Source: a virus
IMG/VR virus record: IMGVR_UViG_3300035070_002615
Span: 1-45,207 of that record
Strand: one strand, 5' to 3'
Length of the DNA: 45,207 bases
The position numbers were made by a program, and so were the translations under genes. The notes below the pieces were generated by a model. That model was not told the DNA's origin, did no database searches, and was given only the letters and a program-made list of their open reading frames with translations. Below, one piece after another: positions 675 through 29,500 of the stretch (position 1 is the first letter of the stretch; each line of letters opens with the position of its first letter).

Positions 675-995
675 ATGACAGATAATGATGTTACTGAAAA
701 ATTAATGAATACTCTCATTACTAAAATGGAATCAATGGACAATGAAATTATAAATTTAAGAAAAATGATTAATTCTCCACAAGCAATACTGAAAAAAGCA
801 GGGTTTGTACCAGTACGTACACCTTTTTCTGAAGATGTAGAAACTGATGCTTTTAGAGCAGATACTTTTACTAAATCTGTAATACCTGATTCTGCTAACC
901 CTGATTCTTATACAAATGAAGAAATTCACGACATGACATGGTCCGATATACACGAAATGGCCGAACAACATAGAGAAGTAAAGGAGTTGTATTAA
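675..995 (+). CDS. 106-residue protein resembling the C-terminal end of the capsid scaffold
   Basis: The start ATG follows AGGTGA with a 4-base gap. Residues about 5 to 32 form a predicted coiled coil, followed by a Ser-Pro and a Leu-Lys-Lys segment, a variable linker, and near the C-terminus the motif MTWSDIHEMA. The C-terminal part of the protease-scaffold gene (8140-9489) has the same order: helix, Thr-Pro, Leu-Gln-Lys, linker, MSWDEVHQLA. I infer a paralogue of the scaffold's C-terminal domain, perhaps a small assembly factor binding the same partner (capsid or portal). The stop overlaps the next start (TAATG). Function is unproven. The resemblance is read by eye. Confidence 0.75.
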   Translation: MTDNDVTEKLMNTLITKMESMDNEIINLRKMINSPQAILKKAGFVPVRTPFSEDVETDAFRADTFTKSVIPDSANPDSYTNEEIHDMTWSDIHEMAEQHREVKELY

Positions 996-1664: not shown

Positions 1665-4600
1665 GTGCAAGAAAATGACATCGAGATTTACTTAAGGCAC
1701 AGAAATGATTTTTTAAAAAGTATTTTACAGTATGAAGACTATGACGATGAATTACTTTCTTTATCAAATACTATTATCAATCTCCAAAACAAAAACATAT
1801 CTTTCACTAAGTCGTGGATAGATGAATATTGTCTCAAAATGGCGAGTGAAATAAAACCTGATTATATCATTAAAGAAAAAATTAATCTTGAAAACTTACC
1901 AATAGATAATATCAGTATCAAGGATTTGGTGAATAGTAATCCTAATTTATCTAATAACCAAATACTTGCAAAATTAAAAGAAATGAGAAGTCAACGAAAT
2001 CCTCCGTTTAAAACAAATTTTGATGATGATGATATTTTGATGCGTATTAACGATATTCGTTTTAAAAAATCAAAATTAAATCCAACACAATGGATAGAAC
2101 AAGGAAATCCTCCTCCTACTAAAAGAGTTGTAAATGAAGTTAGTAGAGAAGAAGATTATGGTAGAATGAAAGGTAATGTAAAAGGGAGACAGTCTGCTGC
2201 TGATGAAGCCAATTTTCATAATATTGATGAATATTTATTAGATGAAGGAAGAAGTTTAAGCGAAAGTGCTTCTTTATGGCCTACTACGAAATCCGGTGTA
2301 AGTCATTTTTTTGATAACAATAATCCTATGGTAGAACAGCATCCAGTTAATGGTTTACCAAGACATTTAGATACTTCTATTAGATACGTTTTAAGTGGTG
2401 AAGCAGATAAAGTGAAAAAAGCGGTAGAAGAACATTATGAGCACCATGAAAAATCTAAACATCCGGTTGTGAGTGGTGTTGTGAAACCAACTGGTTTAGG
2501 TACAAACATAAAAAATATAAATACTAATGAAGATGAAGTACAAAAAAATGAAATTTACTATCCATTTATAGGTGAGACTAGTCAAAACGGGGGATTGAAT
2601 GGTTCACAATTACATGCTAAATCTTTAGAACAATTCAAAATGAATAATTTAGATACTGAATTTGATGGTAGAGAGTTAGATAATTTATTTGAAGGAACTA
2701 AAAAAGTAAGTGAAATGAGTGATGATGAGATATTGAAAACTCATCTTATGACTTGGGCTGAAAAATCTAAAAGTAAAGATTTTATTAAACCTGATAAAAC
2801 ATACAAAGAACATTTGGCGGCTCAAGGGTTGGGTGAAAGTGAAATTACTAAAAAAGTTGAAGATGAACTAAGACAAGATTATGTTATGAATGGGAAACAA
2901 TGGCCTGAAGATGTTAAAGAACAAATTGCTATAGTTCAAAATCGTCTTGGTGAAATGCATGGTGATAATCATTATCATGGTGTTGGTTTTCTTACACATG
3001 CATTAGGTATAGAATTTTTATCACCACAAGATAGAACTACTGTTTTTAATTATTTGATGGAACATGGTACTGATGATGCTGATAAGCAAGTTATACAACT
3101 TTCTGACGGTAAATTAAATATGAGTTATTTGAAAACTCAAATGATGAGCCGTGTGATACCTGCATTAAATCATTCACAAAGAGCACCAAATTTTGCTGGT
3201 CCTAATCTTTCTGCTAAATTTGAAGATGAAAAATTAAAATTTAAAGATAAATCGAGAACATTAGGTTTTGCAAATCATCTTTTAGATAATTTAATTTTTA
3301 CTCACGACGATACACGTCATCCTAATTATGATGAGTTTAACAAAGGTGTAATGTCACAATATTTGATGGATGAACTAGGTCATGACATTTGTCGACAAGA
3401 TGCTGAAAACGCACTTACAGGTGATGATAATCTTTCTTTATCTGATTTATTAGAGCATCATGGGATAGATGGTTATTATCAAAATGGTAAAATGAAAAAA
3501 TTCACTACTGAAAACAGTTTTAATCAAAAATATAAAGATGGTAGAAATCTTGATGGTGAAACTTGGGAGCAAGTTGCTTTAAGAGAAAAAAGAGCCGCTG
3601 TAGAAAATAATGCTATCAAATGGCCTTCTTTAAGTAAAATGGGTATTGAGTTTGGTAATTTAAATAAAAAGCACATTAAAGAAATTTTAAATTGGGCAGA
3701 TTATTATAGAAAATTAGATAAAACACCAGCAGAAATGAATTTAAGTGAAAAAACAGGTAAAGCATCGCCTTTATGGTCAGCATATACAAATTGGGCTGAA
3801 GGAAAAAAAGCACCTCATAAAAATCTTAATGAAAATGCACATGCAGCAGAAGTGATAGAAAGAAGTGGAAATAAATGGGAATGGAATGATATGGTTAATT
3901 TTCTCGGTTTCAACGAAAAGACAAATGAGGATGGTAGTATTACTTATAGTAAAAGGGGAAAACATGACATGTTACCTTTGCGTAATACGCCATATTTTAC
4001 TAACAAAGAAATGCAAGCAGTAAAAGAACATTATGAACATAGTAGAAGTTTATCTAATAAATCTAAAAATATTAGAAATATTTCAAAACCTTTTAGGATA
4101 GGCTCTAATGGTATTAGAAAAGAAGATTTACCTAAATCTGAAGATGGGATAATAGAATATGGTGTAGATAAAGGATTCTTAACAAATGAAAAAGATGAAA
4201 ATAAACTCGAAGGTTTAGGTAGAATGTTTCATGACATTTACGATACAAAGGGCGGGCATGGTATATCTGATACTCAGTTCTTATCTATTTTACATGACCA
4301 TCATGCACACTATGTAAATAAAAACGCTAAAGTTGGTGAAGTATATTCAAAATCTATTTTTGGTGAGATAAGACGACAAAGTTTAGATGATATTAATGAA
4401 CAAGGTAAATCTCAATCATTTAGTAGCACTTTATCCCCTTTGATACCCAATGAAAAAATAACAGGTTTGATTAGTTTTTTACTACCTAGTAATTTACCAG
4501 CAGGTGCAAGAATACATAAAGGGGTAAAAGATATAATGAGTTTACACGGTTCAAGTTCTATTAGAACTCGAAAAGATGAAAATGGTAATGTAATATTATC

Positions 4601-7600
4601 ACCCGGTTTAAATGATAAAAATGATACTGACCGTATATCGGCTAGACATCCTGATGTAATCAATCAAGGTAAAAGAAGAGATAAATTTGGCGACATAGAT
4701 GGTGGGGATGCGTATTTTATTAATACACATGGTAAAAATCCACATGTTTTACACGACCCCTACGTTGTTAGTAATCGAGTTAATTCTTTCATTTCAGATG
4801 GTAAGATTAACAATCTATCAAAAATAAAACAAATATTAGGCATGAGCCATGCTATGACTCATAGAGGTAGTAATACTGTATCAGATATGAGGCAAAAGAA
4901 TGATATTGGTGATTTTTGGGGTTTTGATTTTGGTTTACATCCTAATGGGAAACCTAATACATTCCTTAAGAGTAAAGATATTTTAAGCCCTGAAAACATC
5001 AAAAAATTAAAAATAAATGCAGATATTGACGAGTCACAATTAAGAGAACTACTTGCTTTGTCAACTAAAGTTGCGAGAAAAGAGTTTGCAGATGAGATAC
5101 ATGATTTCACACAATCACCGATAAATAATCAAGAAATACAACAAGGTACTGTTGAAGACATAGGTTCTCTTTTAGAACAATTAAAAGGAGAAAAATTAGA
5201 ATTAGAAACTAGAAGAGATTCAGCAGGTCTATCATATGAGAAATTTGGCTCAACACAACAAGATTATGATAAAGGTCCAATAAATGATTTTAGTAGAACT
5301 TCTGCTATCTATAAACCGTTAAACACTAGTGAAAAAAATAGATTAAAAGAGTTAGATGAAGAAATAAATCATGTACAAAATCAACTAAACGTGATAGAAG
5401 ATAAGCATTATTCTAATAGTTTCAGTGCAGAAAAAAATCGTTTTGACCACGAAGAAGAAGGGAGAGTAAGAGATGAACACGCTAAATTAGATTTTGCTAA
5501 AGAACATTTGTTACCTAAAGTGCTTGAAAATTTTCCAGATGCTTTTAATGCAGATGTAATAGGAGCACACCAAGTTAAAATCAACATGGCACAATTATTG
5601 CACGATGCAGAAATTGGATTGTTAACTGTACCTCATGAAGTGCATAATTTGAAAAGTTATGGTAGTAAAATAGGTGAAAGTGCATCACAGACAATGCAAC
5701 AACTTAGTAAAACGGGTGAAGGTCATCATGGCGATATACAAAAAACAATGAGTCAACATGGAGTTGGTTTGAATGATTTTGGTGAAGATGAACATGGCAA
5801 TTCTAATTTAACTGCACAGAATTTAGTAGAAAAACTTGGTTTAGAACTTAATCCAAATAATTTAATGTATGCTCAACAATTAATAAACAGCCATATTGGT
5901 AAAAATAATAAAGTTATGACTTTAGGACAATTACTTAGTAAGCATCCAAATCTTTCAAAAATACCTAAATTAGATGAAAATGGGGAACAAATGATAGATG
6001 AAAATGGGGAACAAATCTATGAAGATGGTTGGAATAACACTAATAATTCTAAAGAACGTCAAGAACTACTTGCAAATCATTATAGGAAAGCATCACAAGC
6101 AGTACCACCTACTTTAGAAAAAATACCTCAAAGAGATGAATTTGGTAATTTAATAAGAGATGAGGATGGTAATATGTTATTTGACATGCAACCTAAAAAA
6201 TTAACAAGGGGTAAATCAGCAACAGGTGGTTCTTTTGATTTACATCCAAATCCTACTAAAATAAGAAATGAACACTATAGAACTAGCCCGTTATACAATC
6301 AAATAAGAAAATTACACAGAAAAATGGATATTTCTCCAAAGAGTGCACAATTTGGTACATTGAAAGATGATTATGGCTTAGTGTATGAAAAGAATGGTGA
6401 AATAGGAAGTGGGATGAATGTAGGTAAAAAACAACATAAAGACAATTTACATAACATGTTAGACAGTGTTATAGTTTATGATGCCGATTATGATGAAAAA
6501 CTAACCAACCCGACTGATGAAAAAACAATAACTAGACCAAGTTTTTCACAAGGTGAAGTAGAAATACATCCACACCATGAACAGAAAGGTAGAACCTTAT
6601 CTACAGTATATACTGGCGGCGGTATTGCTCCAATAGCAAGTACTATGACAAACTCACAAGCAAATTTCGCATTTAATTTCACCAAAGGAGGAAATATAAA
6701 CATAGGAAATTATGCCACACCTCGTGCTCATGTTCCGCCACCTGCTGGTGTTTACCCATATATATTAGGGGAAGAACAACATCAAATGAATACAAATGTT
6801 GTTTTAGGAGACCAAACATCGGCTCAAATGCATGAAAATCCTCAAACATCTTCTCAAAGTGATGAACTTGCTTACGCTGATATATCTCATGTGGCTAAAG
6901 CCGAATTACCTATAGAAATGCCTTTAATAGAACCTTTACATAAAATATTCAAAATTACTGATATTGAACAATTAAGAGGATTTACTGGTGAATGGGTGGC
7001 TTCTATACAAGAAGATGGTAAAAGGTTGAAAGTAAAAAGAACAGGAAACAGAATTACTTTAACTGATGGAAATGCACAAAGAGTAGATAGTTATAGTGAA
7101 ATGGATAAGTATTTTAGAAAAATTACTAGTAAAAATTATGTTATAGATGTCATTATGAATGACGAAGGTATTTTCATCAGTGACGTAATGCATTACGATG
7201 GAACAGATGTGACCGATTTAGATACTAGAGATAGAATGAAACTACTTAGAGGGCAGTTTGAAAGTCATAATTTTATTCATGTGCTTGGTCCTTCAACTTT
7301 AAAAATTACAGACGAAGATGGTCTTGAAAATGCAGTGAAAGATTTACTATCGGATAATAAAGATAAAAAGATATTACTAAGAGATGCTAAATCTACATAT
7401 ATGAAAGGAGAAGAAAAACATCCGAAATGGATTATGATGACTAAGTCATACGATGATTATCATATCCCTTTTGATATGGAAATTGAAAATGAACAATTTA
7501 TATTACATTTTGCTGATGACATTGTGAAATATGATATTTTAGATGACGGGGTATTACTAGACGTTTTGAATCCTAAAAGTATGTTAGGGGAATTATATGA

Positions 7601-8096
7601 TGATAATTATCCATTAACGTTAGCCAAAAGTTTAGAAAAATATTGGCAACCTGCATTTCGTCAAATGTGGAAAGCAGAAAAAAAGAAACGTCTTACATCT
7701 GAAGTTGATATGGATATGCCAAGTAAACCTGATGATAAAAAAGTTGAACTTGAAAGTGCAGGTATTATTGATGCTGATGATGAATCTAGGATAATGAAAC
7801 CAAAAAGAAAGCAGATGTTAAAAACATTAAAATTGATAGCAAGGGCGTTAGATGTTTTAGAAAAAGGACACAGTAATATGGCTGGTAGAGGACTAGGAAT
7901 TGACGTAGGAGCACAGATAGAAAGCCCTCGTGGTCCTACTCGTTTAACGTCTGAAGAAAGTATGCCTGACTGGGATATGAAGGAAAGACCCACTGAAGAT
8001 ATGGAAAAACCTGAAAAATATCCCGGTAGAGACAAAAAAATAAAGATTTCTGAAGAAAATCATGAAGAAATAGAAGAAGATTTAGACACTTACTGA
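1665..8096 (+). CDS. giant 2143-residue head-region protein with a degenerate DNA ligase-like domain
   Basis: GTG start preceded by AAGGAG (1651-1656) with an 8-base gap. The first 1750 residues are polar, Asn/Asp/Glu/Lys/His-rich and not recognisable. They contain short internal repeats (for example DENGEQ twice near 1437-1451). Residues about 1762-1935 resemble the adenylation domain of ATP-dependent DNA ligases, with the catalytic positions changed (described separately). The C-terminus (about 1990-2143) is charged and low in complexity, with a helix around 2045-2070. The gene lies upstream of the protease and capsid genes, where minor capsid or DNA-ejected proteins are often encoded. An internal or ejected virion protein is my inference. 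No signal peptide or membrane segment is visible. Confidence 0.85.
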   Translation: MQENDIEIYLRHRNDFLKSILQYEDYDDELLSLSNTIINLQNKNISFTKSWIDEYCLKMASEIKPDYIIKEKINLENLPIDNISIKDLVNSNPNLSNNQILAKLKEMRSQRNPPFKTNFDDDDILMRINDIRFKKSKLNPTQWIEQGNPPPTKRVVNEVSREEDYGRMKGNVKGRQSAADEANFHNIDEYLLDEGRSLSESASLWPTTKSGVSHFFDNNNPMVEQHPVNGLPRHLDTSIRYVLSGEADKVKKAVEEHYEHHEKSKHPVVSGVVKPTGLGTNIKNINTNEDEVQKNEIYYPFIGETSQNGGLNGSQLHAKSLEQFKMNNLDTEFDGRELDNLFEGTKKVSEMSDDEILKTHLMTWAEKSKSKDFIKPDKTYKEHLAAQGLGESEITKKVEDELRQDYVMNGKQWPEDVKEQIAIVQNRLGEMHGDNHYHGVGFLTHALGIEFLSPQDRTTVFNYLMEHGTDDADKQVIQLSDGKLNMSYLKTQMMSRVIPALNHSQRAPNFAGPNLSAKFEDEKLKFKDKSRTLGFANHLLDNLIFTHDDTRHPNYDEFNKGVMSQYLMDELGHDICRQDAENALTGDDNLSLSDLLEHHGIDGYYQNGKMKKFTTENSFNQKYKDGRNLDGETWEQVALREKRAAVENNAIKWPSLSKMGIEFGNLNKKHIKEILNWADYYRKLDKTPAEMNLSEKTGKASPLWSAYTNWAEGKKAPHKNLNENAHAAEVIERSGNKWEWNDMVNFLGFNEKTNEDGSITYSKRGKHDMLPLRNTPYFTNKEMQAVKEHYEHSRSLSNKSKNIRNISKPFRIGSNGIRKEDLPKSEDGIIEYGVDKGFLTNEKDENKLEGLGRMFHDIYDTKGGHGISDTQFLSILHDHHAHYVNKNAKVGEVYSKSIFGEIRRQSLDDINEQGKSQSFSSTLSPLIPNEKITGLISFLLPSNLPAGARIHKGVKDIMSLHGSSSIRTRKDENGNVILSPGLNDKNDTDRISARHPDVINQGKRRDKFGDIDGGDAYFINTHGKNPHVLHDPYVVSNRVNSFISDGKINNLSKIKQILGMSHAMTHRGSNTVSDMRQKNDIGDFWGFDFGLHPNGKPNTFLKSKDILSPENIKKLKINADIDESQLRELLALSTKVARKEFADEIHDFTQSPINNQEIQQGTVEDIGSLLEQLKGEKLELETRRDSAGLSYEKFGSTQQDYDKGPINDFSRTSAIYKPLNTSEKNRLKELDEEINHVQNQLNVIEDKHYSNSFSAEKNRFDHEEEGRVRDEHAKLDFAKEHLLPKVLENFPDAFNADVIGAHQVKINMAQLLHDAEIGLLTVPHEVHNLKSYGSKIGESASQTMQQLSKTGEGHHGDIQKTMSQHGVGLNDFGEDEHGNSNLTAQNLVEKLGLELNPNNLMYAQQLINSHIGKNNKVMTLGQLLSKHPNLSKIPKLDENGEQMIDENGEQIYEDGWNNTNNSKERQELLANHYRKASQAVPPTLEKIPQRDEFGNLIRDEDGNMLFDMQPKKLTRGKSATGGSFDLHPNPTKIRNEHYRTSPLYNQIRKLHRKMDISPKSAQFGTLKDDYGLVYEKNGEIGSGMNVGKKQHKDNLHNMLDSVIVYDADYDEKLTNPTDEKTITRPSFSQGEVEIHPHHEQKGRTLSTVYTGGGIAPIASTMTNSQANFAFNFTKGGNINIGNYATPRAHVPPPAGVYPYILGEEQHQMNTNVVLGDQTSAQMHENPQTSSQSDELAYADISHVAKAELPIEMPLIEPLHKIFKITDIEQLRGFTGEWVASIQEDGKRLKVKRTGNRITLTDGNAQRVDSYSEMDKYFRKITSKNYVIDVIMNDEGIFISDVMHYDGTDVTDLDTRDRMKLLRGQFESHNFIHVLGPSTLKITDEDGLENAVKDLLSDNKDKKILLRDAKSTYMKGEEKHPKWIMMTKSYDDYHIPFDMEIENEQFILHFADDIVKYDILDDGVLLDVLNPKSMLGELYDDNYPLTLAKSLEKYWQPAFRQMWKAEKKKRLTSEVDMDMPSKPDDKKVELESAGIIDADDESRIMKPKRKQMLKTLKLIARALDVLEKGHSNMAGRGLGIDVGAQIESPRGPTRLTSEESMPDWDMKERPTEDMEKPEKYPGRDKKIKISEENHEEIEEDLDTY
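5973..6016 (+). repeat. 24-base-spaced duplicate encoding DENGEQ
   Basis: Two identical 20-base copies begin at 5973 and 5997 and encode Asp-Glu-Asn-Gly-Glu-Gln twice inside the giant head-region protein. A related pair (DEFGN / DEDGN) follows around 6137-6172. Both look like short in-frame duplications of a loop or linker. Confidence 0.8.
6948..7467 (+). other. encoded domain: ATP-dependent DNA ligase-like fold with lost catalytic residues
   Basis: Within the 2143-residue protein, residues 1762-1935 follow the order of a ligase adenylation domain: a leading Pro-Leu-hydrophobic segment, Gly-Glu-Trp, then QEDGKR (1782-1787) where ligases have Lys-x-Asp-Gly-x-Arg. Next is a hydrophobic strand at 1826-1831 (VIDVIM) where ligases have a Asp-Gly-Glu motif III, then HYDGTDVTDLDTRDRMKLL (1843-1861), a good match to motif IIIa. 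ILLRDAKSTY (1903-1912) and KWIMMTK (1921-1927) stand where motifs IV and V occur. The nucleotide-accepting lysine is Gln1782, and the motif III and IV glutamates are also missing. So the fold is probably kept and the enzyme activity lost. Confidence 0.65.
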
Positions 8097-8139: not shown

Positions 8140-9489
8140 GTGCAGCCGAGACTCCAGTACAAACCTTCTGATGAACCTATCAGTTTGCTTAAAGCAGGTA
8201 ATGAACTCATTGTTGCAGGATATGCCAGTGTTGAACTGGTAGACAAGCAAGGGGACTTAATAACACAAGGAGCGTTAAAAGACGGATTTACAAAATTCAT
8301 GCAAAATCCATCATATAGAAACGTACAGTTAGCACACTCAAATATACAAGTAGGAGATGTCATTCCAAATTATACGGATAGCGAAGGGAGGTTGTGGAAA
8401 AGCGAAGTTGACGATGTCGGAATGTTTGTTGTAATAAAACTACGTGACGACATTGAAAAAGCCAAAGAAGTCGCTGCCGAAATACGAAAAGGTGCATTAC
8501 GTGGCTTTAGTATAGGTGGACAGGCATTCAAGAGAGTCAGAAAATCAGACCCTAAACATGGCGATTATCAAGAAATCAGCAAACTCGAACTCCACGAAAT
8601 CACAATTTGTGAAAAAGGAATAAACCCCGAAGCAACATTCAGAATATTAAAGGAAGATAAACAAGAAAAAAACAACAAGGTGAAAAAAATGACAGAAGAT
8701 GACACAATGAACCAGATGACCGACGTACTCTCTCGATTAGAGTCACGTCTTGACTCAATGGAAAAGGGTGAAAAACCTGCTTTCCTTGAAGATAAAAAAG
8801 ATGAAAGCAAGGATAAGGACATGAAAGATGACAAGAAAAAATCTGATACAGAATATTCTGATGTTATTACATCCGACTACCTAAACTGGATGGAAGACAC
8901 TCTAAAGAGTGCAGGAGTAGACACAATGGCTGCTCGTGCTCACTTTGATGGCGATTCAGTTGCAAAACAAAACATGGGTTCAACACCCGGTGAATTGCAA
9001 GGTAGTGACGTAACTAATGGTGGACAAGCACCTCTACGTCAACAAGAAGGAGGAAACCCATCCACAGGAGCAATCCCTAAACTTAACAGCGGTGGAGATG
9101 TAAAGAAATCTGATTTCTTGAATCCTATGGATTTAGATACTTCTGATGTAGAAGCAGCATATGAAGTTTACAAAGCAGCGGCTCTTGAACAAGAATTCCG
9201 TGGTTCTTTAGAATCTGATTTTGCTGCAAGATATCAAGCAGAACGTGCAGAAGAAATAGCAAAAGCAGAAGCAGCATCTTATGATGCTCGTGGTCCTTTA
9301 GATGCTATTACAAAAGCAATTGCTGAACTATCAGAAAGAATTGATAGCATTGGTACACCAGCAGAAGTAGGAGAAACACTACAAAAATCTGCTGCACCAC
9401 AACATGAAGTTCCATCAACTTCCGACCTAGCACAAATGTCTTGGGACGAAGTACATCAACTCGCAGGACGAGTCTTTGAGGGAGAGTGA
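8140..9489 (+). CDS. HK97-type prohead protease (S78-like) fused to scaffold domain
   Basis: Residues about 1-170 match the caudoviral prohead protease family, which cleaves scaffold and capsid proteins during head maturation. The likely catalytic triad is His66 (in LAHSN), Ser124 (in ALRGFSIGG) and Glu153 (in LELHEITIC, with the family's following Asn-Pro/Glu-Ala turn). Residues about 184-449 are a helical, Lys/Asp-rich and Ala/Glu-rich scaffold-like region ending in MSWDEVHQLA. The GTG at 8140 is the chosen start because the conserved domain begins soon after it (GYASVELVDKQGD at 27-39). No SD is visible there. The major capsid gene begins 5 bases after the stop. Confidence 0.9.
   Translation: MQPRLQYKPSDEPISLLKAGNELIVAGYASVELVDKQGDLITQGALKDGFTKFMQNPSYRNVQLAHSNIQVGDVIPNYTDSEGRLWKSEVDDVGMFVVIKLRDDIEKAKEVAAEIRKGALRGFSIGGQAFKRVRKSDPKHGDYQEISKLELHEITICEKGINPEATFRILKEDKQEKNNKVKKMTEDDTMNQMTDVLSRLESRLDSMEKGEKPAFLEDKKDESKDKDMKDDKKKSDTEYSDVITSDYLNWMEDTLKSAGVDTMAARAHFDGDSVAKQNMGSTPGELQGSDVTNGGQAPLRQQEGGNPSTGAIPKLNSGGDVKKSDFLNPMDLDTSDVEAAYEVYKAAALEQEFRGSLESDFAARYQAERAEEIAKAEAASYDARGPLDAITKAIAELSERIDSIGTPAEVGETLQKSAAPQHEVPSTSDLAQMSWDEVHQLAGRVFEGE
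8677..8683 (+). promoter_or_regulatory. internal Shine-Dalgarno for a nested scaffold protein
   Basis: AAGGTGA at 8677-8683 is followed by five A bases and an in-frame ATG at 8689. This is the same SD and spacing used at other gene starts in this region, and it lies exactly between the protease domain and the scaffold domain of one continuous frame. Confidence 0.55.
8689..9489 (+). CDS. nested scaffold protein from an internal in-frame start
   Basis: The ATG at 8689 is codon 184 of the protease-scaffold frame and is preceded by a good SD. Its product would be 266 residues: an N-terminal coiled coil (Met-Thr-Glu-Asp-Asp onwards), a Lys/Asp-rich linker, a Gly/Gln-rich disordered part, an Ala/Glu-rich helix region (about 170-205) and a C-terminal helix ending in MSWDEVHQLA. 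Making free scaffold from inside a protease gene is established for lambda (C and Nu3). Applying it here is inference from the SD and domain boundary. The scaffold would co-assemble with the capsid protein and be removed by the protease. Confidence 0.55.
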   Translation: MTEDDTMNQMTDVLSRLESRLDSMEKGEKPAFLEDKKDESKDKDMKDDKKKSDTEYSDVITSDYLNWMEDTLKSAGVDTMAARAHFDGDSVAKQNMGSTPGELQGSDVTNGGQAPLRQQEGGNPSTGAIPKLNSGGDVKKSDFLNPMDLDTSDVEAAYEVYKAAALEQEFRGSLESDFAARYQAERAEEIAKAEAASYDARGPLDAITKAIAELSERIDSIGTPAEVGETLQKSAAPQHEVPSTSDLAQMSWDEVHQLAGRVFEGE

Positions 9490-9494
9490 ATAAA

Positions 9495-10673
9495 ATGGCA
9501 AGAAATTACGTAAGAACAATAACTGATATGGAAAGATACTACTATGGTGCAGGTAACGCAATGGGTTACTCATACTCCGGTAGCGAATTACTGAAAAGCG
9601 ACAGCCCAATGTTGTCTACAACTGCTGGTACATACCAAGCAATTTATGGACGCAAAGTATGGTCTCAATTGAACCAAGAGTTCAACGCTTTCTCAATACT
9701 ACCAAAGAAACCTTGGGATAGGTCAGGATGGCGTGTTATAACTGGTAAGCCTTCAGATGCTACTACTGGTTCTTTACTTGGTGGAGTTGCAGAAAACTCA
9801 ACATTACCAGACACACAAAGACCAACATTCCAACACATAGCAGCAAAACCAAAGACAATCGCTCATACATTCGATATGTCTGAAACTGCTATCTTCCTTG
9901 CTGACAAGGATGACGGAATGGGAGATATACGCTCAGTTCTTAAAGAAGAAATGGGTAAACATCACGCAGAATCAATCAACAGAATGTTGTTAGACAAAGT
10001 AGATAATCCAGCAGGTAACAATTTTGAGTCACTTGACAGAATTACAGCAGCACATAATGATGACGCTAATTCAAAAACTGGATTAGATGATGACCATGAT
10101 GTTCTTGGAGCAACCAGTAACTTAGATATATACAGTATTGGTAGAGAAGCAAATAGGGCTTGGGCTAATGCTGAAATGAGTAACAATATTGTTAGCGATA
10201 CAGCAACTGACAGAGTTCTATCACTAGATGTCTTGGATGATATATTCCAAAGACTATGGGTACGTGGTGGAAATCCAAAAGTTATACTAACTGGATATGA
10301 CACATTGATGAGATTACAACAATTATTACAATCTCAACAAAGATTCATGGAAGAGAAGAGAGTTACACCTACTTACAATGGAGTAAAGGGTGTACCCGGT
10401 ATCGAGGCTGGATTCATCGTAGCAACATACAACGGTGTCCCAATCATCCCATCTAAAGATGTGACAAAAGATACAATTTCTAGAATGTATTTACTAGATA
10501 CAGATTACCTACACTTCAGTACAGCAATACCAACACAATACTTTGAGTCTGGTATAGAGACAGGAGACCCATTCGCAATAAACAGACTAGGACAGGAAGG
10601 ACTTTACCGAACAATGGGTGAAATCTGGACAACTTTCTTTGGAGCACAAGGACAGGTGAGAGACCTTAAGTAA
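9495..10673 (+). CDS. major capsid protein, HK97 fold
   Basis: The 392-residue protein follows the protease-scaffold gene directly, the usual capsid position. It has the layout of an HK97-fold capsid protein: an N-terminal arm, a Gly/Ser-rich E-loop region (about 75-110), the spine helix region with Ser-Glu-Thr-Ala and a long helix (about 127-165), a P-domain segment with RGGNPKVILTG (about 256-266) followed by a Gln-rich helix, and a C-terminal strand region. There is no separate delta domain, which agrees with scaffold being supplied by the upstream gene. The ATG at 9495 is preferred over the in-frame GTG at 9486 because GGAGAGTGA lies just upstream of it. Confidence 0.88.
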   Translation: MARNYVRTITDMERYYYGAGNAMGYSYSGSELLKSDSPMLSTTAGTYQAIYGRKVWSQLNQEFNAFSILPKKPWDRSGWRVITGKPSDATTGSLLGGVAENSTLPDTQRPTFQHIAAKPKTIAHTFDMSETAIFLADKDDGMGDIRSVLKEEMGKHHAESINRMLLDKVDNPAGNNFESLDRITAAHNDDANSKTGLDDDHDVLGATSNLDIYSIGREANRAWANAEMSNNIVSDTATDRVLSLDVLDDIFQRLWVRGGNPKVILTGYDTLMRLQQLLQSQQRFMEEKRVTPTYNGVKGVPGIEAGFIVATYNGVPIIPSKDVTKDTISRMYLLDTDYLHFSTAIPTQYFESGIETGDPFAINRLGQEGLYRTMGEIWTTFFGAQGQVRDLK

Positions 10674-19327: not shown

Positions 19328-20536
19328 ATGGTTGCAGCAGGTACTCCTATTCGTTTATTCCATGAAAATGGAGATTTTACTGAATTAGATGCTACCAGCA
19401 TAACTCTTGAAACTACCAGAAAAGCAGGAAGTAGTTCCGTACCTTTTGGTGGTGGGCGTAGATGGAATCTTGATTTGAATTTGCAAAATGCTGAGATTAT
19501 GATAGATGGAATTTTTACGGATGATACTGTCTCATATGGGGGTGTTGCAGCATCTGCTACATTCAACTGTTTGAACACAAAACCTACATTTGTTGGTGGG
19601 CTTAAATGGTTATATAGGACGAATCTGAATAATGTTTTAGGTTCAGCCAATATTAACAATAATTTAACAGATGGTAATAATATTACGTTTAATAATAGTG
19701 CGATGATAACTTTAAAAAATTCTACTGGAATAGATAAGTACATTCCTTTGGTGAGAAGAACTTATAGTAATGGTGATGTTTTTGCAGATATTTATACGGT
19801 TAGTAGTAATAATATTAGAGGTTTATCAGGAGTTACCAAATACATAGGAATATCATATCCTAATAGTGACCAATCGTCTGCTCAAGAAACGGCGAATGCA
19901 CAGGTTTTAGCGACCCAAATCAAAGAATATGTAGATACTGTACTTTCGGGTGATTTTTCTGCATCAATACAAGATGATGACAATTTTATATTTGATGATG
20001 AAAATGTTGTAGTGAAATTCACACAAAAAAATTTAGGTATTGATGGTAATAATAACAAACCAATATTCAGTTTAGTACACGGCGGTACAGGTAGGAAACC
20101 GGATATAGTGAATTTTAGAGGTGGTACTAATAGCGTTAAAAAATCAGCAGGTGATAAAGTACAAGATATATATGGTGTTATAAACAATTCAAGAAGAACT
20201 GGTGGTGCGAGGACAGCAGTTACGGCTGCTGGTCGTATTGTTGACACTATTTTTAGAGGCGATTACATAGTAGGAATACAGATACCATTTAATTCAATGA
20301 TAAACGTAGGTAATGAAACCTATGTTGCAAGAAACTTTCACATGCCTACTGGTCGTTATAAATCGAAGGAAGATAAAGGTGCTGAAGCGGCTATGGTTGT
20401 TGGAACTAAATTTTCAGAGTTAAATAATTCTACGGGTATACAAGGTTTTGTTAAAAAACTTTCAATAGATTATGATGCTGGTGAAACTGTATATAGATTT
20501 AGAATGGTATTTTTACCAGTCGATTGGATGTTTTAA
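19328..20536 (+). CDS. putative distal tail or baseplate protein
   Basis: A 402-residue protein follows the tape measure candidate by 5 bases, the usual place of a distal tail protein. The N-terminal 70 residues have a strand-rich pattern with PFGGGRRWNLDLNLQNAEIMIDG and resemble tail-tube-like or distal-tail domains. The C-terminal part (about 315-402) has further strands with PFNSMINVG and ends VFLPVDWMF. An Asn/Ser/Thr-rich middle is unrecognised. Its last codon is one base before the start of the giant gene, suggesting translational coupling. The role as a tail-end ring is inferred from order and pattern. Confidence 0.5.
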   Translation: MVAAGTPIRLFHENGDFTELDATSITLETTRKAGSSSVPFGGGRRWNLDLNLQNAEIMIDGIFTDDTVSYGGVAASATFNCLNTKPTFVGGLKWLYRTNLNNVLGSANINNNLTDGNNITFNNSAMITLKNSTGIDKYIPLVRRTYSNGDVFADIYTVSSNNIRGLSGVTKYIGISYPNSDQSSAQETANAQVLATQIKEYVDTVLSGDFSASIQDDDNFIFDDENVVVKFTQKNLGIDGNNNKPIFSLVHGGTGRKPDIVNFRGGTNSVKKSAGDKVQDIYGVINNSRRTGGARTAVTAAGRIVDTIFRGDYIVGIQIPFNSMINVGNETYVARNFHMPTGRYKSKEDKGAEAAMVVGTKFSELNNSTGIQGFVKKLSIDYDAGETVYRFRMVFLPVDWMF

Positions 20537-20537
20537 G

Positions 20538-23500
20538 ATGCCTGTTATATCTACTACTAATCATGCTTTCTTTTTTGATGGTGTGACTGATAGTATAATA
20601 ATACCACAAGGTAATTCTAGTATAGATAATACTAGCAGGGGTTTATTTAATTCTAATCCTAATTCTGGTTCAGACAACATACTAAATTTGACAAATCAAA
20701 TCACCATAGAGGCTTGGGTTGTACCCGACTGTGGTGGAATTATATTAGAAAAAGAAGGTTGTTTTAGTTTATCTCTAGGAAATGTAGATACTCCCGGCCC
20801 TGCTACTTTTTCATTAAATCTAATTAATACTGAAGATAATCAACTAGAATTAGTTAATTTATCTACGGCTTATTTAACTACTAATGGATATGATGGTACT
20901 GTATTTCCACCTTCTACTTTCGCAGGTATTCATGACTCATATAACAGATTTAATAGTAGTTACAATGATGCCACTACATTAAATCTTAATCATAGACCTT
21001 TGATGCATGTTGTTGCAACATTACATTCTAAAAAAATGCAATTATACATTAATGGTATACTTTTAGCAGAAAAAACATTATACAATGATAATTACATTTT
21101 GTTGAAAAACAACAATCCTATATTTGTCGGTGGGAAAGGAGGTAAGTTTAGGGGTGTAATGGAAGCAGTACATCTGTGTTCTTCTTTCACAAACGATATG
21201 GTACAAGGTGAAGTACCTACCGCTAAAGATGATACATTATTACTTTATAGATTTGAAGAACCAATTGCACCCGTAGAATCTGTATACCCACTACATTTTT
21301 CTGCATCGGCAAATGCTACAACGATATATCTTTCTCCTGCAAATGCAGCATCATTGGCTACTGAACTTACAGGCTCATCGCAAACTTCAGGTACTATAGA
21401 TTTCACAATATCTCCTTATAGTAGCGGTAATTACGCAATTACACAAAGCACAAAAACTGCTACTACTTCTCATTCAGTGCCGCACGTCCCTTACAACTTA
21501 TTATTAAATCCTAATGGTATAAATTTAGATACTTTGAAGCCTAGTCAAAAACCTCCTGAAAGAGTTAGATTAGAAAGTATAAATATTGATACTGGAGCAT
21601 TAACGATATCTAGTATTCATCTTGATTTTGCTACTAACTCGAATGGAAAAAGAGGTCTTTTACATACATATAGTGAATTGGATAAACCTAAGTTTATTGT
21701 TTTAGGTGCTGATTTATTAATTGATAGTGGTACTAGTCGACCTTATCAACCCCCTCACTTTTCTTCACAAGCCATAGATAGAACTGGGCAGATGGTGATA
21801 GATGAAAGTAATTTAGAAAATCATGGATTTGTATTTTCGTCTAACATGGCAACTACTGTAAATGATACAGATAATCCTTTTGCTGCATTGTGGCCTACTA
21901 CTTTAGATGAAGGATATCAAATAGGACATAGTGGTAGACATACAAAAAATCATGTTAAGGGTCATACTTTTTTACGAATGTTACCAAGAGCAGAAAGAGA
22001 AATAATCGATTTAAAGGGTGGAGGTCAAGTTGATTTAGTAGATGTGGTTTATGATAATACAAGAGAAGGTATTAAAGACCAAATTCCAGTAAATAGTGAA
22101 GTTGATGTCTACAGAGATGCAGGTACTTATGGTATAAAAAACATTATCAATTCTTCTACAGTTACTGCTGTTTACAATGATTTCCAAGATGTTACTGTAT
22201 CGGATGGTAAAGAAAAATTAATTGCTTTAGGTGGTACAACATTTGATTACAGACCTTTTATGTTAAAGGGTCAAGTACCTACATATGGTACTACACCTGA
22301 TGCTAATACAAGAAAGCATCATCTTCGCCCTAGTAAAGAAAGTAGAGTTGCTTTATTACATATACCTATATTGAGAAGTACGTATAATCATGCACCTTTT
22401 ATTGAAGTCCATTATAATGCTATAGATTTAACAGGAGCATCGATGAACAGTTATGATGGTAGTACGAGAGTAAATACTGCTCAACCTTTACTAATGGTGG
22501 AAAAGACTGTACCTGCTTCTAATACTGCTTTTATCAATGGTGATAGTACAGCATATCTATATGACATTATTGTTAGTCAAATAAGTTCTTTAGGTAGTTT
22601 AACACTTTATTCGCCCGGCGGTTATGTTGAGTTTGACAGTTTAGAAAGTGAAAATATCTTTGCTGTTAACGAGTTAGTTGGAGATAATAGTGAAGGATAT
22701 GATGCTGATGATGATTTAGATGAAAGTTATACACCTGCAAATTTTACTCCTTACGCACAAGGCTTAATAGGTAATTCACCACCTAAAATCGTTTTAGAAT
22801 CATCTAGTCAAAATGAATCCCATCCTTCTATTTTCAATAAAGTTTATTTTCCTAAAATTGAAACTAGCAAAAACTTGACAACATCTAGTAATATAACTAG
22901 AATAGAACCTGAAGTAAATGTTGGAAGTCCTTCAGACGGTCAATTTGATACAGGGGTATCAGGAGTATCTTCATCTATACATGAGTTCTTTGATGTTATT
23001 GATAATATCGTAGATGTAGAGAATCCATCTTTAGCAGACATGGCGTTGATTATACAACCTTGTGATAGGACTAGAACTAATCAATTGGCACATATCAAAC
23101 ATGCTTTAGATGACTCAAATGATGTTAACCAAATGAGTTTGTTATATCTACTTAACAGGGCAGTGATAAGAGGTATAAAAGAAACTAACGATGAAGATGG
23201 CTCTTTTACCGTCATAGAATGTGAAGGTATTTTTACTCCTTTTGTATCACAATCTATAGACTTCAAAGGAAAAGGTAGTCCTGATTCTCACGTTGTTAAA
23301 GAGATTGAGCCAAATGCACCTGTTGTTACAGTCACTTTAGGTGGTCCGGGTCAAGGTGCAGTAGATACTAAACCTACTTACGATGAAAGTAAACTTAGTA
23401 GATTGCCATTTTCTTCAAGAAGGTCATATTCAGTAAGAGCAGATTACCTAAACACAACTAGTGGAGGTAGTATTACTGTTTCACCATTAAATAATCACTC

Positions 23501-26500
23501 TAGTGATATGAAGAGTTGGGGTACATATGGATTTCCAAAAGTTGGTTACATATATTTTGAAGATGGGAGTAAAGCACGTTATCAAAGTAAATCCGGTAAC
23601 ACTTTCACTTTTCAATCCAATGAAGCAGTCATAGGTTCTGGTTATTATGTAGCACATGATGGTACAGAATTTGCTTTCATTAAACCTCTATTACGTTATA
23701 TTGGTTATATTTCAAATTCAGATTCAACGATACTTCAAATTAATAGAACATTATACAGTGAACCGGATTTTGGCGATGAGAGTTTAATTGATAATGGGTC
23801 AACTGTAAATGACCGTATGTTTCAAAAAATGAATGGTGTTAACCATGACTACCAACTAGGTACTCAATTCGCTAGTACAAGAGCATTGGCAGAAATTCCA
23901 TTTTTCGATAATCAATTTTTTGGCAAACATGTAGGACCAAATAATTCTTTCAAAATACATTTAGATGCTACTATGACTGCACATAGTTACAATCCTAGTC
24001 CAGTAGGAAAAAGGCCGATTGATTTACCTCCTGCTGATAGAGAAGTAGAATCTGCATATAGTTTTGGCGATAACAACCCATTTACATCCACTGTAATAGA
24101 AAGTTTATCTGGAAATAATTTAGTTGTTAAAGATATTAATATATTTCCAACACCTGAACTTACTGCCAATTATCAACAAATAACAAATAATACCACTAGT
24201 AGATATAGAAAGGCGTTTTTACCAAGTGGTGATTGGGCTTTTTATTCAGCGATAACTACAAACACTAAAACTCTTACACTAGTTTATCCGTCTGCTAATT
24301 TTAGACAAAATGCTATTGCTGGTACACCTGTAACAGTTGGAGGACCAAATACAAATGATGGTGCTATAGTACTAGCATCTGATAGTTTTACACCATCTTC
24401 GGAATATGAAGATAGAAGTAATACATATTATGATTCTGCGAGCGTTAAGACACAAGGCGGTAATGTTGATTACGGTATGAGGCAATATGTTAGTGCTGTA
24501 GAATTTAAAGAAGGACCGGAAACTAATCCACACGCAGAAAAAATACAAACAAAAAGAGCATCTGCTGTTATTGGTAGTGTCAACGTAATTGGTACTACTG
24601 TTACAAAAGGAAGTATATTAGAAATTACATTAAGCGATGAAGACATGGAATTATTTCCCGATATAGGTATTGATAATTTATCAGATTTAGTTACAGGAAC
24701 AGGGGAAACTTTTTACGAAGTTCAATGTGTTCATCCGTCAAGAGGAACTTTAAAATTTCATTATTATGGTACATTAAATGAATATAGAAATTTTGACAAT
24801 AATGTTATAGTGAATGGTGATAATACCAGTATTATATTATATTATTATGAGGCTTTTAGTGTTGCAGACGCTTTGGGTGGTAATAATAATTATCCAGATT
24901 TCTCTGTGTTAGCAGGACAAAAAATGACTCTTGTAGGAAAAAGAAGAAGAGTATTTTATGATAATTTTGTATTTAAAAAAGGGTCTGTTACATCTGAATC
25001 AGATAAAAAAATGGGTATAACCAATGAGTTAATTTCTAATGTTAAAGTAGACACTAATATAGCAATAACTGCTTATTCTACCATTAATAAAACAGTAACT
25101 GTAAATCCTGTAGATGATGTAGGTTTATTTGATTTATCTGGTTTAAATGTAAGGAAAGGGGATGTTCTTTTTGCTTACAAAGTATTATCATCTACACAAA
25201 CTTATGCTACAATCGGTACAGTAGACAGTATTGCTGTTCATAGTGATAGTAGTGTAGTCATTACATTATCAGATAGTGATTTGAAAGCAATTGTTAATGT
25301 AACTGATTACAAATTAGGTGTAGGTTGTGATGACTTTGATGATGTAGACGCTATATTAAATAAAACATGGGTTAATCCTTATGCTCCGGGCGGTCTAAGA
25401 AATGGTGATACAATTTGGGGCAATATGTCTTACAACAACCCTCATGCAACTGAAGGTTTATTTTTCAAAAGTAGAGGTGTATTAAATGAGTCACAAGTTT
25501 GGACTGGTTTTGATAACGGTGAAGGTAATTTAAATTCAAATCCAAGAGATAGTATACCTTTAGAAAATTTCTTAATTGGTAATACTTGTTTAGAAACTGC
25601 AAGAAATTTCGCTCAGCATGTAAATAAAACAATAGAAGAAAATTACAAATCGTTAGGATTAACAGCAGTAGAAGCACCTACAGTTGCTTATGTAGACCCT
25701 TATCTCTCCGATGAAGGTCATGCAAGAGTGTTGTTATATGATGTAGCCCATGATAGAGAGTTTATTGCATTCCAAGATTTACATATGCAAGTACAAAGTG
25801 AATTACAAACAACACATATTGGTTGGAACAGATATGTAGTCAAAGATACTGATACAACTCGAACTGACTTGCATTCCTATCTTGCTTCTTACAATGGTTC
25901 TTCGCCAAGTGCTTGGACAACACAAATCGATGTGACTAATGGTTATCCTTCACAAAATCGTTTTATTCGCTCTACACAACAATCTAAATTTATTGAAAGT
26001 GCTTATGCTCATGATTTACCAAATAAACAGGCTTACAATTTAACTAGTAATTACATATCTTCTACAAACACCACACCGAAATACAATAGGTATTCAAGAC
26101 TTTATGGTAAAGGTCATGGTCATTTTGTACACACTGAATATTCATTACAAGGTGCTTCTTCAGGTTATACTTTTTCAAATAGTCTTCCTCCACAAACTAC
26201 ACCACATGTCTCAATTTCTAAGATAGCAGACGACTATCATAAGTTATCTAGGAGAAAAGGTAACGATTTTATTAGTCAATTAATTAAAATAAGAAATGCA
26301 ACCACTGCTTGTTCTTTCCGTGACCCTTCGACATTTTTCGATACTCCTGATGGTACTCGTGTTATACCTGCATTTTTATCATTGAAAGGTATAAGAAGTG
26401 AAACATTATCATTAGATAATCATGAAGAATCTAGGTTGCAACATTTACCACAATGGAAAGATATGGGTTTTGTGAGAAGATTATCCATAGATGCAGGTTC

Positions 26501-29500
26501 TATAGGATTGAAAACCAGAAATAGTTTAGAGGCTGCCGAAGAGATAGTTCGTACAATTAATCAATATGCAGCATTGAATGCTAGGCTAAGTGACGGCAGT
26601 TCTGCTCATGACCCTTCTCCGTTTTGGGATACCAAACAAAGTTTTTCATCTGCCCAAAAAGGTACACATATGGGTTATTTGAGAGCACACATTGGTAGAG
26701 CCGTTACTGATAGAAACGGTGTTAATGGTTGGACTGTAGTTATACACAGTACAGTGCCGGGAGCAAGTGGTAGAAATTTCTGTGTTTGGTTAGATAATAG
26801 TCAAGGCCAAACTGAATATCAACCTGAATTTATTATTGGTCATGGCGGTAGGTGGCGTAACTTTTGGGCTTTACCTGAAGATATACAAGGTGAAAACATG
26901 CATCCTGCACCTATGCCTCTTAACAAACATGGAAGACCATTTGCTCCTATTACAACGTTACAACAATATTTAGAAGATGAGAATGAAGAAAATGTCATTG
27001 CTGTTACTGACTATGGAACAGATGAAGAAGATACAATACAAAGTGTATCGGATGTGATTAGCGGTCAAATGCATAATACTTCAATACCTAAGTCTTTTGA
27101 ATCTGAAGGTTCACCTTCAACTTTAATTCAAGGTTTGAGAACTGGTAAATCTGCTATTGCTAGAGTAAATTTTGGCGGTTTAGTAGCAACTGGAGTACCC
27201 GGTTTTACAGATGTTGCAGGAAAATGGGGATATGGTGCATTCTCTACTGAAGATAAAGCAAGGTATGGAAACAATGTAGCAAGTAGTTATTCTTCTCATG
27301 TATCTAATGCTGAAAAAATTAAATTAGCGAAAGGAGAATCTAAAAGAGATTTATACGGTTTTAGATTTGAAGACCATTTGGGTAATAATTATGGTGTAAG
27401 ATTTATTTATAGAGAAAGAGAAAATACTCGTGGTGGTAGAGAATCTTTTGTTAAAAAAACTGAGGATTTACCTTCAACAATTAGTCAAGAAATATGTGTA
27501 TTCTTCAACGATAAGGATGTGAGCCAAGGTGGTTTCACTATTGGTAAAAACATGAGTGGTAGTGGTGATGCTACGGGTATGTTAGATACAGGAGATGCTA
27601 CTAATCCTGTTATTGAAACTTGGACAGGTAATCTATGGAATGCAGTTAATGCCCCTGAAGCAACTGTGCGTGTTAATGTAACTGAAGACGCTAACGAAAG
27701 TAAATTACAAATCGTAGGATTAGAACCCTTTGATGCTAGTTTTACAACAGATGGTAAATTAAATTATCTTGGCTTCCCTAAAAATGGTGGTCTTTTACAA
27801 ATATCTGATATAGATGGTACTGGTAATGCAAATGTCGGTAAAGTCTTTCATTATACACATCAAGATGGTAGTTATTTTTATGGTATAACACCAAGTGTTG
27901 CTGACTGGAACATCACCAACGACCCTTATATTATCAGCCCTGTTTTAAATCGTACTACATTAGTTACTGATGAGTTGATGGCTGCTGTTACTGCTGCTGC
28001 AATCAATGCTACAAGTCCGACAACTTTTGATTGTACTCATATGTATACTACAGACGGTAAGACTTTTGGAGAATGGGGTGTAAAACCTGATTCGATAGTT
28101 ATTACACCATTCAGCAATGATGGTAAATATCTATCTGAAAGTTTTTCTGCTTCAATACACCCAGATTTAGGTATTCAAGCAGCACACTTAGAATTTGGAG
28201 AACAAAAAGCCATTATCAGAAGTAATGGTGTACTAAGTATCACAACACCAAATCATATTGTTACAGATGCTAACTTAGATTTAGGTAAGAAAGTTGATTG
28301 TGGTTACATACCACGCACTTTACTTCAAATAGTTACAAAAAGTAAAGGTAGACATACAAACACACCAACTCCTGTATTTGTAAATTCAACTAACAATCCT
28401 GTAGATACAACAGCGTGGAAAAACAATCTTAACGGTGTTACTTTCACTAGAAGTTCTGGAGACCATATATTACCAAAAATAGATAGCCCTCAATTTAGAT
28501 TTGATTCATCTGCCAGTTGGGGTTCTCAAAGGTTAGATGCTGCGGATACCAATACTGAACTATGGAATTTCTTGATACCATCAGATTCTTCTACAGCGAG
28601 TGGTATGAAAGCATTTGGTGAAAAGAAAAGAGCATATTTCGTTGACGATAGTACTCCTTTCCTTGTTTGTTCTATGATTGTACAAAGTCAACAAGGTGCT
28701 GATTCTGAAAAGAAATTAATCTTTAATACAAATACTGGAATAAACTTACCTTCTTCTCCACCGGGAGATAATCAGATACTTACTTTGTTTGGTGATGAAA
28801 GGGCTAGAGAGTTTGCAGGTCTTAGGACTTTAGGTAGCGTATTTTCCGAACCAATTACATTCTTTAAAGGTGGTAAAAGTAGTCCCGACCATAGTGTTCC
28901 GGTGTTCTTTGGTGGTGGATTTACAGGTGTTACACTAGATGTTAATGACGGTACTACAAACGATTATTCATCTTTTTACACTCATCCTTATGCTAGTGGA
29001 CCAACTGGTACTGCTGGTATTCAGAATGCAAATGAAATATCGACTAGTTTTGCTATGTTAGATTGTAATGCTATGTTTGCCTTCTTTCCCGGTACTCCGT
29101 TGTGTAACCAACATCGTGGTAGTTTGATGCCACCTTTCTTCAATCAGGATAACATGTTAACGCCTGACTTAGATAGAGGTGGTACTTCTTACACTAGAGG
29201 TGTAGTAAAAGCAAAACCTATACCTTTAGTAATGCGTTTCGCTCATCCAACTGCTAGATATGAAGACCATCGTGATGGTACAGATAATAAAACCACATAC
29301 ATGATATTTGGTCCGGGTCAAGCATTCCCATTCACAGGTGTACATGATTCTACAGGTACAGAAAACGTTAACGAACCTTTTTCCGGTAGAATAATTACAA
29401 GTGGAAATACTTGGTCTCGTGTACCTAGATTTACTGAAAATAAACAAGCATTCCCTAATCATATTACTAACAAAGACGGCGACTATTTACCTGAAGACAT

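Follow-up and report, generated by a model that had tools for sequence, protein, structure and literature searches.

The window analysed here is the 45,207-base virus record IMGVR_UViG_3300035070_002615 (positions 1 to 45,207), a 45-kb fragment that begins with the C-terminus of a portal protein (12-263). This is followed by a conserved 121-aa protein (297-662), which has a homologue in locus L168 and gave no match in a database profile search, and then by the gene of a 106-aa small protein (675-995, + strand), with an ATG start and the Shine-Dalgarno (SD) sequence GGTGA just upstream. The small gene directly precedes that of a zinc-ribbon-like protein of 169 aa (995-1504). Next come a giant 2143-aa protein (1665-8096) with a weak ligase-like match at 1836-1923, a 449-aa fusion of an S78 prohead protease and a scaffold (8140-9489, + strand), and the major capsid protein with the HK97 fold (9486-10673, + strand). 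The initial annotation had placed the small gene and the scaffold gene 7 kb apart on the two sides of the giant gene; they are indeed separated by about 7.1 kb, with the 2143-aa ORF and also the 169-aa ORF between them. Further along the window, among the tail genes, there is an open reading frame of 5522 aa (20472-37040).

The fusion protein belongs to the S78 family by its match to PF04586 (E 3e-9; 37.5 bits against a curated cut-off of 21), and it also matches the head maturation protease profile phrog_80 (E 1.5e-12). The capsid protein matches PF17236 (E 3e-8) and phrog_24667 (E 9e-61), and its 33.7% identity to the HCTV-5 major capsid protein over 99% of the length places it in the HVTV-1/HCTV-5 family. 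Magroviruses, which have genomes of about 90 kb, are related to haloviruses (PMC10160649). The traits used to recognize these viruses of Poseidoniales were a genome of about 90-100 kb, a family B DNA polymerase, a chaperonin and HK97-type head genes. Both a family B DNA polymerase (5/5) and a thermosome (5/5) occur in the long close relatives of the window (83-109 kb). Since these features agree with the published traits, the gene content of the relatives points to the window being a fragment of a magrovirus-type archaeal tailed virus. The viruses concerned are widespread marine archaeal viruses; in the magrovirus literature that we searched, we found neither the term scaffolding protein nor a description of their head assembly.

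The protease-scaffold gene appears to hold a second, nested start. An internal Shine-Dalgarno sequence, GGTGA (8679..8683, + strand), stands before an internal ATG at 8689 (codon 184), from which a protease-free scaffold of 266 aa is predicted (8689..9489, + strand). Just past the protease domain, a conserved MT[DEN] is found in nearly every relative, with GGTGA or GGAGG a few bases before it. Such a signal precedes 43/54 of the homologous internal ATGs, versus 23/661 of the remaining in-frame ATGs in those genes; among the large ORFs of the window, the rate is 6/149 ATGs. The codons that encode the internal SD vary by clade (KVKKM, KGENM, KEDTTM in translation), yet the signal persists. Because the internal SD and ATG are conserved, the gene probably also yields a protease-free scaffold. 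Three products would therefore probably carry one common tail: the protease-scaffold, the scaffold and the small protein.

This tail is what connects the small protein to the scaffold. As the initial annotation had pointed out, the ORF translations contain MTWSDIHEMA in the small protein and MSWDEVHQLA in the scaffold. The two proteins do not quite end in these motifs, as had been claimed. The motifs are near the C-terminus, at residues 87-96 and at residues 433-442 of 449, and are followed by ten and seven residues, respectively. Their cores are W-S-D-I-H-E-M-A (939..962, + strand) and W-D-E-V-H-Q-L-A (9442..9465, + strand). A scan of the window with a degenerate DNA pattern of the motif gave two matches and no more, where 0.01 would be expected. 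The two single sequences, compared with each other, are only modestly similar (BLASTP E 6e-4 in one comparison), and 7/2000 shuffles reach the same score. The alignment of the two family profiles, on the other hand, gives hhalign E values of 2e-8 to 3e-8 over a core of about 37 columns. In reciprocal HMM searches of all ORFs of the window and seven loci, the only significant second match of each family was the other family. The likeness of the tails is thus genuine and, judged by the sequences, far beyond chance; a score no better than chance was one of the two outcomes named as fatal to the proposal, the other being unrelated predicted structures.

The similarity defines a module with the layout [ILF]xK[SGA], a linker that is disordered and contains P/S/T and Asn/Thr, and a helix-turn-helix M[ST]WxxhHxhA; its lysine is near-invariant and the P3 position is hydrophobic. 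In the small protein, hhalign and reciprocal hmmsearch delimit it as FTK-S (residues 65-68), the linker and TNEEIHDMTWSDIHEMAEQ (867..977, + strand); in the scaffold, the profile alignment and the model give LQK-S (414-417), the linker VPSTSDL and MSWDEVHQLA (9379..9486, + strand). The correspondence is shorter than had been proposed. The expected alignment with scaffold residues 385-449 does give profile similarity (E 2e-8), but only scaffold residues from about 411 to 445 are common to both. The linker ahead of the motif is shared, within the module, just as described. A corresponding lysine exists as well, K67 in FTK-S pairing with K416 in LQK-S, but the ILKK segment is not its counterpart. 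The supposed Ser/Thr-Pro correspondence falls outside the module; the Thr-Pro hardly varies among the small proteins but does so among the scaffolds. Nor do the preceding coiled coils match: the N-terminal regions align with hhalign E 0.086 over only 4 columns, and the small protein does not behave as a full-length paralogue of the scaffold. On the same result, we rejected a coiled-coil homology that would extend to the beginning of the scaffold domain (MTEDDT... versus MTDNDV...).

The AlphaFold models of the small protein (pLDDT 70, pTM 0.29) and the scaffold (pLDDT 66, pTM 0.36) are both of low confidence. In both, the disordered linker is followed by a 5-residue helix and, after a turn, by a longer helix beginning at the Trp. 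The small protein consists almost wholly of helix, linker and tail, modelled as an N-terminal helix (3-32), a short helix (35-41), a disordered stretch (42-75) and the terminal helix-turn-helix (81-105). Helix 3-32 is likely a coiled coil; the amphipathicity of the small-protein helix is no greater than in its own shuffles. A fold search with both models gave no significant match.

Among 87 distinct pairs of tails, W0, H+4 and A+7 are invariant in both paralogues (87/87). Other positions are specific to the paralogue: N-8, H-4 and I+3 in the small protein versus T-8, mostly A-4 and V+3 in the scaffold, with N-8/T-8 and I+3/V+3 dividing the two without exception or nearly so. Because each paralogue holds its own fixed residues, the two tails are better regarded as an old pair, with each copy separately constrained, than as a recent copy; for the same reason, their binding sites or partners may differ. 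Covariation between the residues of paired tails, which would be a sign of a common partner, was not seen (diagonal 0.18 versus off-diagonal 0.176).

The pairing of the two genes is remarkably constant. All 210/210 complete protease-scaffolds carry the tail, and among 201 relatives of the small protein, 188 have the strict motif and 13 have one position substituted. The small gene was found by HMM in 117/118 protease-bearing contigs with more than 8.5 kb of upstream sequence; the remaining contig, G001, has a divergent 154-aa version, which brings the presence of both genes to 118/118. The pool was gathered in part with the tail pattern itself, and the unbiased sets are those selected by protease and by capsid, which agree. 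At loci selected by the protease, without use of the tail, every complete scaffold has the tail, and the small gene lies about 6-7 kb upstream wherever the sequence suffices; relatives of the small protein found by its own sequence have the same tail in all complete cases. Twelve long contigs scanned whole have two forward-strand motif matches each, with none on the other strand or with a reversed-pattern control, and no third carrier of the tail was found in them. When the strict DNA pattern was run across 2.9 M viral contigs of IMG/VR, nearly all of the matches listed were these two proteins. It had 24 scattered matches in 85,000 cellular genomes; two that were examined are an unrelated substrate-binding-type protein, and no match was recognised as the small protein or the scaffold of a provirus. 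We regard the shared module and the obligatory pairing as close to certain. The conserved pair also serves as a signature by which two genes that would otherwise stay anonymous can be annotated in hundreds of contigs.

More distant viruses show the tail in another setting. G001 (L164) has the pair, with a divergent small protein that is without a clear Lys site; a search for close relatives of its pair returned only G001 itself. In two distant archaeal-type contigs, the scaffold is a stand-alone gene between the protease and the capsid gene (L355:7371-8159 and L356:9097-9738), with tails reading IQKG...MTWREVEDYVAK and IEKE...MSFNELADYNAK, respectively, and in the Methanofastidiosa virus vir519 the ORF before the capsid gene ends in FEKAGKMTTEEIERQF. 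Because these stand-alone scaffolds end in a similar tail, the tail can be read as a docking element of scaffolds. As would be expected of a second scaffold, the 106-aa protein has such a C-terminal element in common with the main scaffold, by both the profile comparison and the family scan. Against the stand-alone scaffolds of L355 and L356, the small protein has weak profile scores and aligns by the tail alone (E 0.005); full-length homology to them was rejected, and the likeness is regarded as a lead. No second carrier of the tail was seen in the available sequence of these two contigs.

The lysine of the module may mark a site of proteolysis. K67 is 97% conserved in the small family, where it is one of only two near-invariant lysines, and the corresponding scaffold lysine is also conserved at 97%. 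The N-terminal region of the capsid protein (9486-9620) has a conserved SELLK-SD, a candidate protease site; [IL]LK[AS]D is found near the N-terminus in 185/188 capsid proteins, and HCTV-5 has MSKAD. Conserved candidate sites of the form [IL]xK[SAG] are thus present in both the scaffold and the capsid proteins, and the tail-proximal [ILF]xK[SGA] matches the conserved capsid site and resembles K103/S104, where HK97 is cleaved (PMC10275583). From these sequence patterns, we infer that the S78 protease could cut at the module lysine and at the capsid N-terminal site. Also observed were an 'LLKAG' where the protease starts and, in the scaffold, several further conserved lysines.

The initial annotation had suggested a duplicated scaffold end that could bind the same partner and regulate head assembly, or act as a small second scaffold. 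The matching coils and the Ser/Thr-Pro have dropped out of that proposal; the module of about 37 columns, the universal co-occurrence, the two carriers per genome and the same predicted helix-turn-helix have taken their place. Together with the precedent of CpmB, described below, they are best explained by a duplicated scaffold end whose two copies have one partner, and they suggest that one docking signal is used twice during head building. Under this reading, the small protein would act in head assembly as a small second scaffold, or as an assembly factor, encoded by the virus itself. Its N-terminal helix would probably form a dimer or larger oligomer, and the flexible linker would carry a docking helix-turn-helix that is the same as the end of the main scaffold. 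Both tails would bind one surface inside the growing procapsid, most likely on the major capsid protein, with the small protein possibly docking at a distinct subset of capsid sites. At maturation, the S78 protease would cut at [ILF]xK[SGA] and free both bodies from the shell. Docking of the two tails on the same partner surface is the part we hold with fair confidence; that the partner is the capsid protein seems somewhat more likely than not. The role of second scaffold for the 106-aa protein stands at about an even chance, and so does the model as a whole, from the docking in the procapsid to the later clipping, in which partner, oligomerization, cleavage and role are all predicted.

The origin and the role of the second tail could also be explained in other ways. 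Two unrelated proteins might have evolved similar capped helices that bind different things; the module is short, the upstream coils are unrelated, and unrelated cellular proteins can contain MTWEDVHDLA. But the likeness spans the Lys site, the linker and both helices at E 2e-8, and there are exactly two copies per genome, paired in every testable contig including the distant virus, which makes such convergence very improbable. Duplication is the favoured origin of the two tails from their sequences. The tail could instead serve to target the small protein to the capsid: together with a partner held by its N-terminal helix, it would enter the procapsid to be ejected, and would have no part in giving the shell its shape. 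Examples of such a partner are the neighbouring zinc-ribbon protein and the ligase-like giant, and the small gene does lie within the block of these ORFs. T4 (IPIII) and P1 (DarB) have short targeting sequences at a protein terminus (PMC9024508), and the Lys site just ahead of the tail would release the cargo. However, the T4 and P1 signals are N-terminal, the small protein has almost nothing besides helix, linker and tail, and G001 keeps it while having different genes (a metallo-hydrolase-like gene and a ligase) between the two carriers. A role as cargo or adaptor is rather unlikely, if the most credible of the alternatives.

Alternatively, the small protein might start the assembly of scaffold and shell at one vertex, its tail being bound to the portal or to the surrounding capsomers. 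The small gene is just downstream of the portal gene, and in G001 it is downstream of the portal and gpF-like genes; the fixed differences between the paralogues would fit two related but different sites. Yet the scaffold, which has the same module, has its gene beside the capsid gene, and no second carrier is present in the available sequence of the single-carrier contigs L355 and L356. We consider an initiator at the portal vertex improbable, less so than convergence, and prefer the second scaffold that docks by the tail of the main one.

Fusions of this kind with a nested product are familiar elsewhere: phage lambda C/Nu3 is a protease-scaffold fusion with a nested scaffold-only product and a C-terminal tail that binds the shell. 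In neither lambda nor the herpesvirus UL26/UL26.5 system do we know of a further small protein, encoded by a gene of its own, that has the tail of the scaffold. The latter resembles the genes described here in that a protease-scaffold fusion is accompanied by a nested scaffold-only product and the C-terminal tail is the shell-binding element (PMC12474303). Unlike in these systems, the nested start here is predicted only from a conserved ribosome-binding site.

The closest parallel for the small protein is in a satellite. CpmB of SaPI1 and the scaffold of phage 80alpha have a nearly identical C-terminal helix-and-hook and compete for one cleft of the capsid protein (PMC5644958). Like the protein here in its relation to the scaffold, CpmB is small and helical; its N-terminus oligomerises, and its C-terminal helix resembles that of the 80alpha scaffold, gp46 (PMC5644958). 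CpmB, however, is encoded by the satellite, redirects capsid size and has the RIIK motif, while the protein here is encoded by the virus, is always present and has MSWxxhHxhA, with binding that is predicted. RIIK is absent from the 106-aa sequence and from its family consensus, and the protein does not classify as a member of the CpmB family. T4 IPIII and P1 DarB are similar in that a short terminal sequence sends proteins into the capsid (PMC9024508), but that signal is N-terminal and is not common to the end of the main scaffold, while the tail here is C-terminal. With HK97 and S78 systems and with HVTV-1/HCTV-5 (Druskaviridae), these viruses have in common a homologous protease domain, the capsid protein and a Lys-Ala/Ser site near the capsid N-terminus. 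The WxxhH tail motif was not found in the haloviruses HVTV-1 and HCTV-5, despite their related capsid proteins, and a search of the HVTV-1 head region for a second carrier of that virus's own tail found none; the best match, an internal stretch of a zeta-toxin-like protein, was rejected, being equalled by 61/1000 shuffles.

Should the small protein compete with the scaffold for one site, or complement it there, this would show that a second scaffold controlling size or shape can belong to the normal equipment of a virus. It would then not be solely a weapon of satellites, the 'competing scaffold' being known so far from a capsid-remodelling satellite. More tentatively, magroviruses and at least one distant relative could make three products with one tail, including an obligatory, separately encoded mini-scaffold that serves as a built-in 'competing scaffold' and may descend from a scaffold of the L355/L356 type. 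With the tail as a tag, it might also be possible to load proteins into magrovirus heads.

Two minor observations were made in the head block of G001. At L164:2181-4814, the domain of an ATP-dependent DNA ligase appears to carry an intein (Hint domain). In the capsid gene (L164:9322-10922), the reading frame has an apparent break after about 290 residues, followed by an HNH endonuclease ORF, which suggests an intron or insertion.
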